Positions 3,795 through 26,117 of a DNA stretch of 64,000 nucleotides are shown piece by piece. How positions within the stretch are numbered: the stretch's first letter is position 1; each line of letters starts with the position of its first letter. Source of the DNA: a virus; IMG/VR virus record IMGVR_UViG_3300035703_000076, positions 1-64,000 of that record; one strand, written 5' to 3'. The position numbers and the translations under genes were made by a program. Below the pieces are notes generated by a model, which did no database searches, was not told the origin of the DNA, and worked only from the letters and a program-made list of their open reading frames with translations.

Positions 3795-4642
3795 GTGTTT
3801 AAAAATGTTCCGTGTTTAGCTATATGTTCTGCTCTTGCCTCTTCAATCAATTGCTCGTTTGTTTTGTAAATCCCTTCGTATGGGTTATCGCTTTTTTCTT
3901 TTGGTTGACCTACTTCATTCAAATATTTTTCAAATTTCGATTCGTTGAACAAAGTTGAAGGAACAAGATGCGTTTTCATCTTTTCGTCATTCTGCCATTG
4001 AGCAACCTTGGTGTCAATTACATTCTTGCAATCTTCAATGGTGTGTGTTTTCAGTCTTGCACCAATCAGCCTTTTTGTTTCTTTTGTTTCGGGCTTAAAG
4101 TTTGAACCTGTTTTTTGATTGAGGTAACTTACAACCTCTGCAACTTCACTTTCGTCAATCGGTAAACAGTTTAAAATATCCTCTTGCAGCTTACGAAGTA
4201 TAGGTATGTTTTCTTCAACAGACACTAACCCCATAATAGTTTCTTTGTTTATTAGTTTAATTGTTTCTATGTTTATAGTATTATAGGTATCATCACCTTT
4301 ATCGCCACCTTTACCACTACCTTTATTGATACCTTTATCACCACCTTTATCGAAATTGTAAAGGCTAACTACACTTGGAACTAAGGGATTCATACTTGGT
4401 TTGTAGGTAATAAATCCTGCTTTTTGGAGGTCGGATAATACTTTGGTGTATGTGTTGGCAGAACCAACTTTTGATAAGGTCATTACTTCTCTTCTAACAA
4501 TCTGAAATTCCTTTTGGAAACCTGACTGATTCCATAAAAGAAACAATGCGTTGTATATTGAAACGTGGCCTGAATGAAAACCCTTTATATCAAAAAGCTT
4601 ATTGTTAGCCTCTCTATGCTGTATGATGTAATTTACTGACAT
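3791..4642 (-). CDS. Replication initiator / helicase-loader-like protein
   Basis: 283 aa. The N-terminal ~100 residues look like a winged-helix DNA-binding domain, then comes a Gly/Lys/Asp-rich linker (KGGDKG repeats, residues about 97-117). The C-terminal ~100 residues match the conserved phage C-terminal domain (Phg_2220_C): VVSYLNQKTGSNFKP followed by RLIGARLKT and a helix around VAQWQND. Proteins with this build are lambda O- or DnaD-like initiators that recruit a helicase, and here the primase-helicase follows with a 4-nt overlap. The ATG is preceded by a -7 box only 4 nt away, so the mRNA may be leaderless. The linker DNA is itself a 12-bp repeat array. Confidence 0.8.
   Translation of the reverse strand: MSVNYIIQHREANNKLFDIKGFHSGHVSIYNALFLLWNQSGFQKEFQIVRREVMTLSKVGSANTYTKVLSDLQKAGFITYKPSMNPLVPSVVSLYNFDKGGDKGINKGSGKGGDKGDDTYNTINIETIKLINKETIMGLVSVEENIPILRKLQEDILNCLPIDESEVAEVVSYLNQKTGSNFKPETKETKRLIGARLKTHTIEDCKNVIDTKVAQWQNDEKMKTHLVPSTLFNESKFEKYLNEVGQPKEKSDNPYEGIYKTNEQLIEEARAEHIAKHGTFLNT
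4295..4354. repeat. Five 12-bp direct repeats inside the initiator gene
   Basis: Five consecutive 12-mers start at 4295, 4307, 4319, 4331 and 4343, each beginning ACCTTTA and differing mainly in the last five bases. They encode the KGGDKG-type linker. In lambda the origin iterons lie in the linker-coding part of gene O, so this may be a replication origin. The position and repeat pattern are observed; the origin role is inferred. Confidence 0.6.
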
Positions 4643-4646
4643 GACG

Positions 4647-4654
4647 CAAAAATA
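4647..4654 (-). promoter_or_regulatory. -7 box directly before initiator ATG
   Basis: TATTTTTG on the minus strand ends 4 nt before the ATG at 4642. With usual Bacteroidota spacing, transcription would start at or beside the A of the ATG, making a leaderless mRNA. Confidence 0.55.
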
Positions 4655-4777
4655 AACCCCCCAAATTCAAGCAAAGGCTAACCCAAGGATTCTGTTGCGT
4701 CAACAGATTTTTTTTGGCAATGCGAGAAAAGGGGGGAATGTGAATTGTAGATTTCATATCCTTGATTGTTAGCGAAG

Positions 4778-4785
4778 CAAAGATA
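4778..4785 (-). promoter_or_regulatory. Candidate second -7 box upstream of initiator
   Basis: TATCTTTG on the minus strand between the 60-aa gene and the initiator would give a leader of about 130 nt. That leader contains a small hairpin (CTGTTG cgt CAACAG, 4692-4706) beside a run of eight T on the plus strand. Tandem promoters for the replication operon are possible. Confidence 0.4.
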
Positions 4786-4793
4786 GTTATTTT

Positions 4794-4976
4794 TCAAACC
4801 ATCAATGAAATTTCTTTCATCAACCGATTTTCTTTTTCAACAGCTTTTTCAACTTCAACGATTGAAAGCTTTCCTTCAATGCGTGAAAGCCTTGAATCAA
4901 CTACTTGCTGGAAGAGTTGAAAAGCTTTGTCGTTGGTTTTGATTTTGTCGGGGCAGATGGCGGCGTGGTTTTTCAT
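4794..4976 (-). CDS. Hypothetical 60-aa protein
   Basis: Small protein (MKNHAAICPDKIKTND...) whose second half (SRIEGKLSIVEVEKAVEKEN) is likely one amphipathic or coiled-coil helix. No family recognised. Located just upstream of the replication operon. Confidence 0.5.
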   Translation of the reverse strand: MKNHAAICPDKIKTNDKAFQLFQQVVDSRLSRIEGKLSIVEVEKAVEKENRLMKEISLMV

Positions 4977-19860: not shown

Positions 19861-20337
19861 ATGAAAGAGAGGCACGTAAAAACAACTGAAACTGTTACCA
19901 ATAATTTCTCAGAAGAAACTGGGGAATTGAAGGGGAGCCATAAAGAAACAAAGAGCTATTCGATATTCGTGGAGGATAGCGAAAGCTTTGCTTATGTGTT
20001 TTCTTCGATTATAGGGGCATTAAAGAACTTGAATGGTAATGATGTACTTCTTTTGACTTATTGTTCGTTAAACGCAGAATTTAACACCAACAGGATTACG
20101 ATTAACAAGCCCATCTGTGACGAAATTTATGAGAAGCTTGGCGTTCCATATCAGTCGGTTAAGAACTCGCTTGGAAAAATGACCAAGATTGGTATCTTTC
20201 AAAGGTTGGGTTCGGGAAGTTATTTGATTAATCCCCATTACTATTGGAGGGGTAAAAGGAATGAGAGAGGTAAAGTTGCCAAAGAGTTTAGTATATCAGT
20301 AAAAATCAAACCAAATAATAATTTTGAAAATGAGTAA
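19861..20337 (+). CDS. RepL-like plasmid replication initiator
   Basis: 158 aa. A polar N-terminal ~55 residues is followed by a winged-helix-like domain: NDVLLLTYCSLNAEFNTNRI, YQSVKNSLGKMTKIGIFQRL and YLINPHYYWRGKRNERGKVA. The GSYLINPHYYWRG turn matches the RepL / plasmid-replication winged-helix family, in which a short-lived initiator opens a nearby origin. Three 21-bp iterons and a promoter lie directly upstream. It could instead be only a transcription regulator of that fold. Its stop overlaps the next start (ATGAGTAA). Confidence 0.7.
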   Translation: MKERHVKTTETVTNNFSEETGELKGSHKETKSYSIFVEDSESFAYVFSSIIGALKNLNGNDVLLLTYCSLNAEFNTNRITINKPICDEIYEKLGVPYQSVKNSLGKMTKIGIFQRLGSGSYLINPHYYWRGKRNERGKVAKEFSISVKIKPNNNFENE

Positions 20338-20822: not shown

Positions 20823-21047
20823 ATGACCTACCAAAAATGTCCAATCTGCGATGGAATCGGTATGGTTCCCGAACCCTATGCTGTAACAACAAGCTTCCAC
20901 GTCAAATGCCCCACTTGCAAAGGTGCAAGGATTATCAGTTCAATGACGGGCTTGCCTCCTGAAATGGTTGTCAAGGAAGTTGAGGAAAGGGAAAAGGATG
21001 AGCAATTTAAAAAAGAATTGCAACTTATTATCAATCAACAATTATAA
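20823..21047 (+). CDS. 74-aa DnaJ-type zinc-finger protein
   Basis: Two CxxC pairs, CPICDGIG at residues 6-13 and CPTCKGAR at about 30-37, with the CxxCxGxG spacing of the DnaJ central zinc finger. No J domain. Probably a small zinc-stabilised binding protein. Two nt after the previous gene. Confidence 0.65.
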   Translation: MTYQKCPICDGIGMVPEPYAVTTSFHVKCPTCKGARIISSMTGLPPEMVVKEVEEREKDEQFKKELQLIINQQL

Positions 21048-21051
21048 TCTT

Positions 21052-21237
21052 ATGCAACAATTAATCAAATCAGAACTACGCCGAAGGAAGGAACAACGCC
21101 ACCTTGACTATTATGGCAAATGGGTTGAACGAGCAATGGCAATGACTGCACGAAACAAACCCCGCCCCATCCTCCAAGATGAAATTGAGTATCCCGAAGC
21201 TGAAACATTTTGCTTTGAACTGAAAAATAGGAAGTAA
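21052..21237 (+). CDS. Hypothetical 61-aa protein
   Basis: Start chosen at 21052 (MQQLIKSELRRRKEQRHLDY), just after the previous stop. Very basic N-terminal helix, acidic C-terminal end. May bind nucleic acid; unknown. Confidence 0.5.
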   Translation: MQQLIKSELRRRKEQRHLDYYGKWVERAMAMTARNKPRPILQDEIEYPEAETFCFELKNRK

Positions 21238-21362
21238 CCCCCTAAAAACACCGAAGGCCACCTATTACAGCAGCCTTTGATGAAAACTTTAAACTATGAA
21301 AAAAAGTGAATCAAAACCAACCACGGAAAATTCACGCCACAAAGGTAAATAAACTTTTTTAA

Positions 21363-21623
21363 ATGAGAAACTTCCTTATTGTAATTTTATTTCTGTTGTG
21401 TGTAGTCCAGGCAAATGAGATTGACAAGCTTGAAAAGATTGACGAGGTTCACATCATGGAGGCTTGTTACCCCGAAATTGACACAATGGTTGGGCAGGAT
21501 TGCGTTAAAATTGTTTTTGGAAGGATTGCCAAGCAAATTTATGACGACACGCTTAAAACGAACAGAATTTACATAGAAAAAGCAACTTTTAAATATTACT
21601 CCAATGACCCTCACCGCCGTTGA
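21363..21623 (+). CDS. 86-aa secreted or membrane-anchored protein
   Basis: The N-terminus MRNFLIVILFLLCVVQANE is a clear signal peptide or membrane anchor with a likely cleavage site near VQA-N. The mature ~68 residues have two Cys (EACYPEID, GQDCVKIVF) that could form a disulfide. An exported protein in this block suggests a host-envelope function; no family recognised. Confidence 0.6.
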   Translation: MRNFLIVILFLLCVVQANEIDKLEKIDEVHIMEACYPEIDTMVGQDCVKIVFGRIAKQIYDDTLKTNRIYIEKATFKYYSNDPHRR

Positions 21624-21828
21624 CCAACTGATACTTGACTTGACTTCCAACCGAATGCTTGAATTGAAAGACCCGTTTCTTTTCCAAGACCTTGTAACCA
21701 AAGCTAAGGAAATCGAAATGAAGCAAATCGTTGAAGCGAGAAGCACCGCCCCTTTGTTGTTGAACCCAATGAAGGAAGATTATAAGGTTGAAGCGGAGCA
21801 TTATTACAACAAGAAGTTTAAAAAATAA
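21604..21828 (+). CDS. Hypothetical 74-aa protein
   Basis: MTLTAVDQLILDLTSNRMLE..., helical, ending YYNKKFKK. It overlaps the secreted-protein gene by 20 nt in another frame. Confidence 0.55.
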   Translation: MTLTAVDQLILDLTSNRMLELKDPFLFQDLVTKAKEIEMKQIVEARSTAPLLLNPMKEDYKVEAEHYYNKKFKK

Positions 21829-21850
21829 TTTGTAGTTTCAAAAAAGTTTT

Positions 21851-21981
21851 TACCTTTGCTCCAAGTTCACTCTTGGCGGAGCGCACTAAAAAGACATTTT
21901 TTATTCCTCGGGCATAGCCCAAAGAATTCGCCCCACTTGAAGTTCCCCTCCGCCAAGAGAACAAGTGGGCTTTTCTTTTTT
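21851..21981 (+). ncRNA. Structured leader RNA with interleaved stems and terminator
   Basis: A TACCTTTG -7 box (21851-21858) is followed by about 120 nt of structured RNA. Stem A pairs CTCTTGGCGGAG (21870-21881) with CTCCGCCAAGAG (21948-21959), 12 perfect bp, enclosing a GGGC ATA GCCC hairpin (21910-21920). Stem B pairs CCCACTTG (21932-21939) with CAAGTGGG (21962-21969) and is followed by TTTTCTTTTTT, an intrinsic terminator. One arm of A lies in the loop of B, so the stems are interleaved and probably exclude each other. Just after the T run is the ATG of the 255-aa gene. Candidate attenuator/riboswitch or a short terminated ncRNA. Confidence 0.6.
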
Positions 21982-21982
21982 A

Positions 21983-22750
21983 ATGCCAAACCACAAAAGA
22001 GATAGGGAGTATGTAAGGTTTCAAGCTAAACTTAGCGATGAGGGCTTGCTTTCTTTGTGGTGCAACTTCGATACATTAAAAAGGCATTGCGAAGTAATTA
22101 ACGGAAAATGGGCAGACCTTGATGGAGGTTTTGTTCGTACAAAAGACCTCGAAATTCACGCTAAAAGGTTAAAGGTAAGGAAAGATACCCTTCGCAAGAA
22201 ATTAAGCCAAATGGTGAAAGAAGGATGGGCAATAAAGAAGCGTACAGGCGTTCAATTAGTTTCTTGGAAAAAGGTTGCGGCTAAATATGGTTTCAACCTT
22301 AAACAGAGAATGATTTTAGGCCACAACAAAAAGACGTTTAGGCAAAATGCCACTTATGCTTACATAAGAAGTTCAATAAATCAAAAAGTTCACCGAAGAT
22401 TTCAAGAACTTAACAGAAAGGAAATGATTGTTAAAAAGGAGCTTATCAGAGAAACCAAGCTCGCTTTGATTAACAACCCCAGCGATGATTACAACTTTGC
22501 TCCTTCTGTTAGAGAGATTGCAAGGAATATCGGATTAAAGTCAGCAAGAAGCGTTTCAGCAATTAATCAGAACCTTGAAGCAAGGGGATTGATTGAAATG
22601 GAGAAAAGAATAGCTTTTTTTTGCATGACTTCGTACTTTCCAATCCATATCAAAGGACAACCCGAATTTGAAGGACATTGTTTCCGTTCAAAGAATGACA
22701 AAGGGCTTGTTGTAATGAGAAGATTGAAGCAATTTATTTTTTTAAAATGA
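21983..22750 (+). CDS. Winged-helix DNA-binding protein, possibly replication-related
   Basis: 255 aa from the ATG at 21983 (MPNHKRDREYVRFQAKLSDE), which directly follows the terminator T run. It is strongly basic. The first half has KDLEIHAKRLKVRKDTLRKK and the C-terminal half a second helix-turn-helix (SVREIARNIGLKSARSVSAI then NQNLEARGLIEMEKRI). Two winged-helix-like units recall replication initiators or regulators. Expression may be gated by the leader RNA. It overlaps the next gene by ATGA. Confidence 0.6.
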   Translation: MPNHKRDREYVRFQAKLSDEGLLSLWCNFDTLKRHCEVINGKWADLDGGFVRTKDLEIHAKRLKVRKDTLRKKLSQMVKEGWAIKKRTGVQLVSWKKVAAKYGFNLKQRMILGHNKKTFRQNATYAYIRSSINQKVHRRFQELNRKEMIVKKELIRETKLALINNPSDDYNFAPSVREIARNIGLKSARSVSAINQNLEARGLIEMEKRIAFFCMTSYFPIHIKGQPEFEGHCFRSKNDKGLVVMRRLKQFIFLK

Positions 22751-22890
22751 GGCTTTGGCAAGAAAATGCACATATTGAAAGAAACCCAATACCTTTAGAC
22801 CATTTGGCATTAAGACAACAGCAAGGAGTGTTTGACCCCCTTGAGATAGCTAAAAACCCGACAAAAACTAAAAAAAACTTGAAAAAATGA
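22747..22890 (+). CDS. Hypothetical 47-aa protein
   Basis: MRLWQENAHIERNPIPLDHL..., linked by ATGA overlaps to the genes before and after it, which is the main evidence that it is translated. Confidence 0.5.
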   Translation: MRLWQENAHIERNPIPLDHLALRQQQGVFDPLEIAKNPTKTKKNLKK

Positions 22891-23267
22891 AAAAACTGAC
22901 TTACAACCTTGAGAAAGATATGGAATCGGGAGAAATCGAAATTTATAGCTCAAACAGCAAAACTAAGCCTCCATACACTTTCGAAGGCTTGCTTAATCTT
23001 GCAAATTTGCATTCTACAAGCGCACTGCAAGCGGCGCATAGCTCTATGACTTATTACAAATTTAATTACCTTAATACAGAGGAAGAAAGAGCCGAAAATC
23101 CACGTTATGCTATGGTGAAAAAATGGGAGCAATATTACGAAACCATAAAAAGTAACAAAAGGTACAAGTGTTCTTGTGGATGGAAAGGAAAAGAAATCGA
23201 AACGCAGGAAAATCATTTTGGAGAATGTATTTGCCCTGATTGCAGGACTACAATAAACACAGATTAA
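22887..23267 (+). CDS. 126-aa zinc-ribbon protein
   Basis: Starts MKKLTYNLEKDMESGEIEIY. The C-terminal ~35 residues hold YKCSCGWKG and ECICPDCRT, four cysteines in a CxC...CxxC arrangement, so a zinc ribbon likely. No enzyme domain seen; nucleic-acid or protein binding inferred. Confidence 0.6.
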   Translation: MKKLTYNLEKDMESGEIEIYSSNSKTKPPYTFEGLLNLANLHSTSALQAAHSSMTYYKFNYLNTEEERAENPRYAMVKKWEQYYETIKSNKRYKCSCGWKGKEIETQENHFGECICPDCRTTINTD

Positions 23268-23276
23268 ACAATAAAA

Positions 23277-23468
23277 ATGGAAACCTCAAAACAAAATGGC
23301 GATTTTGTAATTGTTGACAAACAGGTTTACGCCAAAATGAAAGAATTTATTGAAGGCTACAAATACGCTTTGCAAACAACAAAGTCAATGCCAAATTTCG
23401 AACCTCTTGAAAAGCTGAAAATGCTCAAAATAATAGAGCAAATTAAGGAATGTCAAAAATTTATGTAA
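23277..23468 (+). CDS. Hypothetical 63-aa protein
   Basis: METSKQNGDFVIVDKQVYAK..., mostly helical. No family recognised. Overlaps the next gene. Confidence 0.5.
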   Translation: METSKQNGDFVIVDKQVYAKMKEFIEGYKYALQTTKSMPNFEPLEKLKMLKIIEQIKECQKFM

Positions 23469-25504: not shown

Positions 25505-25535
25505 TTTGTTTGTTTCATAAAACTTCATAACTTTG
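25505..25535 (+). promoter_or_regulatory. Consensus promoter of the RNA region
   Basis: TTTG (25505-25508), 19 nt, TAACTTTG (25528-25535): the best full match to the Bacteroidota TTTG-N19-TAnnTTTG consensus in the window. No ORF follows for about 350 nt, so it probably transcribes the structured RNA and tRNA-like element. Confidence 0.65.
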
Positions 25536-25540
25536 CATCC

Positions 25541-25744
25541 AATAAACATATCCTCTTCTGGTGTAATAAAACACGTTTTAGGATAAGGTGGCGTAATTAA
25601 CCACAACTTGTCTTGAAAAGATGGGGGTGAAAATCCCCCAAAGAGGCGCTCTAAGTGTAGGATTAATCCGAACAACGAGGCGACGCAATGCGCCTACAAT
25701 GCGAAAGCAAGAGGCTTGGAGATAGATATGTTTACTGAAACCTT
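25541..25744 (+). ncRNA. Candidate structured RNA between promoter and tRNA-like element
   Basis: No credible gene on either strand. Hairpins are visible: GGGGG tgaaaat CCCCC (about 25622-25638), GGCG acgcaat CGCC near 25680 and GGATTAATCC near 25662. The region lies directly downstream of a consensus promoter and runs into the tRNA-like fold, so it may be a 5' part of the same RNA. I did not recognise tmRNA, RNase P or group I intron signatures. Confidence 0.35.
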
Positions 25745-25872
25745 GGACAAATGGCGGGATAGGTACACGCAACAGGATGGTGTGATAGAGATTTGAAACT
25801 ATAATCGTAAGCGCACCTCGTTCTTAGGAGAAATCCGATAATAGGTCGCTGGTTCGAACCCAGCTTTGTCCG
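25745..25872 (+). tRNA. tRNA-like RNA with an extra hairpin (Leu-UAG-like, possibly degenerate)
   Basis: A perfect 7-bp acceptor stem GGACAAA/TTTGTCC (25745-25751 and 25865-25871), TG, a 3-bp D stem GCG/CGC with GG in its loop, and an ideal T arm GCTGG-TTCGAAC-CCAGC (25848-25864). The middle is about 40 nt too long. GGAT (25775-25778) can pair with ATCC, and TTC-TTAGGA-GAA forms an anticodon-like loop containing TAG. Between them an inserted hairpin, GGTGTG...CGCACC (25779-25816), breaks the 5' side of the stem. A short variable arm (GAT/GTC) fits a class II tRNA. It could be a functional unusual tRNA, a decayed tRNA or another tRNA-like RNA. No CCA is encoded. Confidence 0.5.
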
Positions 25873-25890
25873 CAAAACTTTTAAACTAAA

Positions 25891-26112
25891 ATGAAAGGAA
25901 TTTATTTAACAGAAGAAGGCGTAAATGAAATAGGAAAAGCTATTTACGTTTTAGAGCGTTCCATTTCTAATGCAGAAGGCCAAATAAAAGAATTCAAGGA
26001 AATGGGATTTGATGTTAAGCAAAACGAAGCATCTATTCGTTCCGATAAAAAAGTTTTGGCTGTTTACAAAGAAATCGCTTCATCTTATAAACCTTTTTCA
26101 AAAAAAAATTAA
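25891..26112 (+). CDS. Hypothetical 73-aa protein
   Basis: MKGIYLTEEGVNEIGKAIYV..., helical with a probable short coiled coil. First gene after the tRNA-like RNA. Unknown. Confidence 0.55.
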   Translation: MKGIYLTEEGVNEIGKAIYVLERSISNAEGQIKEFKEMGFDVKQNEASIRSDKKVLAVYKEIASSYKPFSKKN

Positions 26113-26117
26113 CCACC

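Follow-up and report, generated by a model that had tools for sequence, protein, structure and literature searches.

A conserved folded leader RNA as a candidate conditional terminator upstream of a replication-initiation-like phage gene

The DNA analyzed here (the window) comprises 64,000 nucleotides and corresponds to positions 1-64,000 of the virus record IMGVR_UViG_3300035703_000076, which has 68,946 bases as a whole. On its plus strand a promoter of the Bacteroidota type, a predicted leader RNA and a gene for a 255-aa protein follow directly upon each other (Table 1). The -33/-7 consensus reported for Bacteroides (PMC7366714) agrees with the TTTG-18-TACCTTTG arrangement found here. Counted over the whole genome, the promoter pattern gave 12 matches versus 9 in the reversed control and thus was not clearly enriched. 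Since TAnnTTTG promoters occur together with a terminase distantly like those of crAss-like phages, a host among the Bacteroidota is suggested. The terminase matched 11 crAss-like phage records with 24-31% identity over about 30% of its length, while the database search with the portal protein gave no match. With equal end points, the leader has 121 nt in the window and 120 and 125 nt in two related phages, L002 and L003. This is long, because the median 5′-UTR of B. thetaiotaomicron has 32 nt (PMC7366714).

Table 1. Features of the leader locus (positions in the window)
Feature	Start	End	Strand	Remarks
Bacteroidota-type promoter	21829	21858	+	TTTG (-33) 21829-21832, 18-nt spacer, TACCTTTG (-7) 21851-21858
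Leader RNA	21862	21982	+	predicted start near 21862-21866; about 120 nt to ATG
P1 5′ arm AAGUUCACU	21863	21871	+	pairs with AGUGGGCUU 21964-21972; 9 bp, 2 G-U
Stem A 5′ arm	21870	21881	+	conserved core 21875-21881; partner 21948-21959
Unpaired or weakly paired AUUUUUUAUU	21896	21905	+	identical in all three phages
P2 hairpin GGGC-AUA-GCCC	21910	21920	+	in L003 GAGGU-UGAA-ACCUC, shifted register
AAAGAA	21921	21926	+	identical in all three phages; can pair with tail UUCUUU (21973-21978), lengthening stem B
Stem B (putative terminator) 5′ arm CCCACUUG	21932	21939	+	identical in all three phages
Stem A 3′ arm	21948	21959	+	conserved core 21948-21954
Stem B 3′ arm CAAGUGGG	21962	21969	+	overlaps P1 3′ arm (21964-21972)
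U-run UUUUCUUUUUU	21971	21981	+	adjoins start codon; one T shorter in L002 and L003
Gene, 255 aa	21983	22750	+	C-terminal winged-helix domain, replication-initiation-like (Pfam, PHROGs)

A sequence-only reading of the locus had proposed a DNA-binding protein gene behind the leader, and this was supported by a Pfam match of the 255-aa protein to the winged-helix family LexA_DNA_bind (1.6e-08). Matches to PHROGs for replication initiation were weak (8e-05 and weaker), and the best PHROG (3.1e-06) is of unknown function. The predicted structure of the protein had low confidence (mean pLDDT 38.7). A second replication-type gene (Pfam RepL, 4e-07) is located at 19861-20337, about 1.6 kb upstream of the leader.

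The -7 box, the T-rich run and the ATG named in the sequence-only reading are all present, and its 12-bp stem A and 8-bp stem B were found to be exact when checked pair by pair. It had further been claimed that the two interleaved stems preclude each other. This does not follow, as the four arms have no nucleotide in common; a switch between stems A and B was therefore ruled out, and both stems could coexist as a pseudoknot. Such a pseudoknot would be of the H-type, with loops of 50, 8 and 2 nt in the window and with 13 nt instead of 2 after the shifted stem A of L003. The loop of stem B is long (22 nt in the window, 26 nt in L003), and stem B was missing from a simple terminator scan with a loop limit of 8.

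Stem A alone is unremarkable, because one perfect 12-bp inverted repeat with a gap of up to 80 was seen in the window and 1.4 were found on average in shuffled windows. The combination of interleaved 12-bp and 8-bp stems with a T tail occurred once on the plus strand of the window, never on the minus strand and in none of 60 shuffled windows. When the 120-nt leader alone was shuffled, 4 of 5000 sequences had a 12-bp stem and 433 of 5000 had one of 8 bp with a gap of up to 40. Also, region 21851-21990 was predicted to fold more stably than its shuffled versions (z-score -2.94).

Folding revealed a third helix, P1, which is absent from the sequence-only reading. It joins the 5′ end of the RNA to the 3′ strand of stem B and thereby caps stem A into a long rod. 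P1 was part of the minimum-energy fold in all three phages, with a pair probability of about 0.99 for most of its pairs. Since P1 and stem B use the same 3′ strand (21964-21969), they are mutually exclusive, so that by sequence and fold prediction it is P1 that competes for the terminator arm, as required of an attenuator. Helices of at least 9 bp arose in 23 of 20000 shuffled arms and for 253 of 20000 random 11-mers of the window (1.3%), which is weak evidence because the comparison was chosen after P1 had been seen. P1 and stem B never vary in the three phages and neither has covariation support, in the case of P1 because the sequence is invariant.

For the window, energies of -35.6 kcal/mol for the rod and -25.8 kcal/mol for the nested form with stem B were calculated. 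The pseudoknot of stems A and B was estimated at roughly -31 to -34 kcal/mol from a background of -29.9 and helix B with -11.5, minus an assumed penalty of 7-10 kcal/mol, which places P1 rod and pseudoknot within a few kcal/mol of each other. For L003, the rod (-43.3 kcal/mol) is favored by about 6-9 kcal/mol over the pseudoknot, estimated with the same penalty at about -34 to -37 kcal/mol; the nested form with stem B reached -34.8 kcal/mol. In folds of the growing chain, with 12 nt assumed to be hidden in the polymerase, stem A formed before the 3′ arm of stem B emerged.

The unit of promoter, RNA and gene was found in two IMG/VR phages, L002 and L003, whose gene products are 96% and 91% identical to that of the window. 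The three elements are linked in all three phages, while the upstream content differs. In L003, conservation spans 21822-22895, i.e. promoter, RNA, gene and a small frame, whereas the part between 21598 and 21822, where the window has a 74-codon gene (21604-21828), finds no match there; the promoter spacing of L003 is 18 as in the window. In L002, the old promoter is parted from the RNA by an insert of 551 bases that carries five tRNAs, and a fresh and different promoter sequence, TTTG-19-TAATTTTG, precedes the RNA. This favors a separate transcription start for the RNA. Because the RNAs of the window and L002 are nearly identical and three sequences were found in all, L003 provides the one real comparison.

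Frozen in L003 are the 5′ 16 nt, AUUUUUUAUU, CAAAGAA, CCCACUUG, and AACAAGUGGGCUUUUC with the subsequent U-run and ATG. Those parts that would have to serve two pairing partners or to stop transcription (5′ end, arms of stem B, tail) are all invariant. Amid the changed sequence between these segments, stem A of L003 consists of GGCAGCGUGAACA and UGUUCACGCUGCC with 13 bp. The 12-bp stem of the sequence-only reading is preserved in part: its 7-bp core is kept in all three phages, with 7 of 7 pairs standing in both the window and L003, while the outer 5 bp have no counterpart in L003, where they are unpaired. Two core pairs differ and are changed on both sides (G-C to A-U and A-U to C-G). Because the MAFFT alignment did not follow the structure in the 3′ arm of stem A, hand-chosen coordinates were used to tabulate the 7 core pairs. 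P2 is a hairpin in both sequences. Loss of both stems in homologues, which would have spoken against the earlier proposal, was looked for, and stem B turned out to be identical and the core of stem A kept in all three phages. Since stem A is replaced in L003 with two compensatory changes in its 7-bp core, folding of the RNA is under selection, judged from sequences of which only two are effectively independent. The frozen segments, the two-sided change of stem A and the retained P2 argue for a folded RNA rather than a DNA binding site.

Further members were sought in several ways. A query with the protein gave 6 candidate stretches, the N-terminal alignment 35 and the terminase 6, each time including the same two relatives. 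The pattern scans returned 1 stretch for stem A (a known relative), 2 for stem B (both known), 12 for the 5′ 16-mer (2 known, 10 dismissed as unrelated on visual inspection) and 6 for P1 (2 known, 4 judged unrelated), so that among the stretches returned by the viral-contig scans for stem A, stem B, 5′ 16-mer, P1 and N-terminal alignment there was no further true member. One match from a single scan of genome contigs (L006) lies inside the antisense of a coding frame and was taken as chance. By chance, the P1 pattern also led to a long hairpin on the reverse strand of IMGVR_UViG_3300037295_000263 (L020; 216,704 bases) at offset 2881, which encloses the ATG of an open frame and has 17 continuous pairs in the MFE fold; it is probably unrelated to the leader and possibly a translation-control hairpin. 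In INPHARED, neither 21001-23400 as DNA nor the 255-aa protein had a match and the leader gave short chance matches only (E 2-6); PLSDB gave no protein match. With Rfam 15, 0 of 4227 families reached the gathering threshold over the 64-kb window, and region 21801-22050 gave three sub-threshold chance matches only (E 2-2.9). A known Rfam riboswitch, leader or 6S-type RNA was therefore rejected, in line with the earlier statement that no known riboswitch class was recognizable. In the three members found, AUUUUUUAUU and AAAGAA are invariant. In the literature searched, judged by title and abstract, no paper describing such a phage leader was found.

We consider it about evenly balanced whether this leader of a phage early gene acts as a conditional intrinsic terminator, i.e. 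as an attenuator. In all three phages the sequence has a promoter upstream and, in the same orientation, a terminator-like hairpin before the first codon. Of the attenuator or riboswitch geometry proposed earlier, the promoter, the structured leader and this hairpin stand and are kept in two relatives with compensatory change, while the switch between stems A and B does not. Transcription from the promoter would give a leader of about 120 nt, in which the last hairpin (stem B) and the U-run form a putative terminator abutting the start codon. Stem A would fold first. The emerging strand CAAGUGGGCUU could then be taken by CCCACUUG in the loop, giving the terminator, possibly as a pseudoknot with stem A. 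Alternatively, CAAGUGGGCUU could be taken by the 5′ end of the RNA through P1, resulting in the long rod, which would keep the AUG and the greater part of the tail free. A factor stabilizing or blocking the rod, such as a protein, a small molecule, another RNA or the polymerase speed, would set the read-through into the gene. Termination, switching and regulation are the parts of the attenuator reading that we infer from the sequences. Because P1 reaches the same U-run, the rod might itself terminate, in which case the switch would be illusory. If the mechanism holds true, a replication-initiator-like gene is controlled by RNA folding right after its promoter, outside all Rfam families, and attenuation in Bacteroidota could be studied on the leader as a compact test object.

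It seems rather unlikely that the locus holds an independent small RNA gene of about 115 nt which has a promoter and a terminator of its own, pairs its 5′ end with its 3′ end for stability and lies by coincidence ahead of the 255-aa protein gene, the latter being read by leakage. Promoter and terminator are indeed the standard layout of small RNAs, P1 would serve as 5′-3′ closing helix, stem A and P2 diverge fast in sequence, a trait of RNAs whose trans partner changes, and these phages insert RNA genes directly 3′ of promoters (tRNA array of L002; window 25537-26117). Yet the U-run abuts the ATG in all three phages and leaves no space for a second promoter, so that the gene must be reached by read-through that begins here or further upstream.

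Also unlikely, by a little more, is a far-reaching version of the attenuator, representing a new class of phage regulatory RNA. Here the terminator would be pseudoknotted, the transcript 5′ end and the in-loop arm would compete for its 3′ arm, and the RNA, in which U-rich and AAAGAA segments are invariant (as a binding site or a U.A-U triple, perhaps), would sense a phage or host signal and gate expression of the replication initiator.

We regard it as distinctly improbable that the leader acts on translation. The form with stem B would pair the U-rich tail with AAAGAA and end its helix beside the AUG, hiding the start region, and the rod would free this region. The invariant AAAGAA is complementary to the tail UUCUUU including the G, and this pairing was present in the forced-B folds of the window and L002, but the same features serve an intrinsic terminator and the tail is conserved as a U-run.

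Even more doubtful is a leaky terminator without regulation, which would reduce read-through or shield the gene from transcription arriving from upstream. In its favor, the terminator stays while the same-strand genes in front of it vary from phage to phage; for such a role, however, a simple hairpin would suffice, and a 120-nt fold that shows compensatory change and has invariant loops as well as a rival helix exceeds the need. A DNA-level element, i.e. inverted operators for the downstream protein with its winged-helix domain or an origin hairpin, is very improbable and the operator was rejected, since the two arms of stem A have changed jointly in L003 despite 91% identity of the protein, which resembles pairing and not a binding site.

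Returning to the attenuator reading, the leader resembles in layout, without being assigned to a riboswitch class, known leaders whose closing helix has one strand in common with a terminator. In adenine riboswitches of the pbuE type (the subject of PMC7707468), the upstream fold is closed by a helix whose 3′ strand also belongs to an intrinsic terminator. The exclusion of fold and terminator via a common 3′ strand is the likeness to the phage leader. In contrast, the phage leader has no purine aptamer, no Rfam match and no known ligand, and its terminator 5′ arm sits inside the loop of stem A. Fluoride riboswitches (the subject of PMC11077080) combine a pseudoknotted aptamer with an intrinsic terminator. 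A pseudoknot intertwined with an intrinsic terminator in a short leader would be common to both. Sequence and layout of the phage leader are different, and again there is no Rfam match. The trp, his and phe leaders are ribosome-mediated, and alternative pairings decide whether an intrinsic terminator forms ahead of the first structural gene. Such a decision before the gene is also proposed for the phage leader, which, unlike these, lacks a leader peptide: the window leader has no ATG, and no open frame is kept across the window, L002 and L003. Ribosome-mediated attenuation is therefore unlikely, and leader-peptide attenuation of the window leader was rejected.

An arrangement of this latter kind does seem to exist close by in L002 (IMGVR_UViG_3300020043_005956), where a candidate attenuator lies within 4290-4450 (4326-4445) in front of the tRNAs at 4451-4840. 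Behind the old promoter TTTGGTAGTTTCAAAAACATATCTATATTTG come, in this order, an ORF (4326-4394) encoding MKQFQHIHFTQPIFSWLGLYCA, a GC hairpin with T6 and tRNAs for Pro, Gln, His, Phe and Met. Codons for Gln, His, Phe and Pro make up 8 of 11 at codons 2-12 (binomial 1.4e-05) and 9 of 21 at codons 2-22 (binomial 0.001), with 19 hand-picked window ORFs as background, and these control codons match four of the five tRNAs. Folding predicted an antiterminator (-16.2 to -19.5) with the ribosome at codons 2-13, which was lost (-5.6 or weaker) beyond; a stalled ribosome was assumed to cover about 11 nt downstream. The predicted pairings have the 1:2 / 2:3 / 3:4 layout of an attenuator, which is the textbook layout of amino-acid attenuators. 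Here, phage tRNAs seem to be subject to ribosome-mediated attenuation in response to a shortage of the very tRNAs concerned. The arrangement was found in 1 viral contig, and no paper on such control of phage tRNAs was found in the literature searched.

In the window, region 25505-25873 comprises a promoter TTTG...TAACTTTG and, behind it, an RNA-like stretch mostly without match in L002 and L003. At the end of this stretch (25745-25873) there is a tRNA-like gene, reported by ARAGORN only with introns allowed, which has a 33-nt intron in the anticodon loop and a long variable arm; its isotype depends on the intron position. In this phage lineage, the tRNA array and the tRNA-like gene are inserted directly 3′ of conserved promoters and before the next gene (window 21829-21862 and 25505-25536 compared with L002 and L003). 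Taken together, the leader and the candidate tRNA-array attenuator suggest that the position just 3′ of a promoter is a slot for RNA regulators in these phages.
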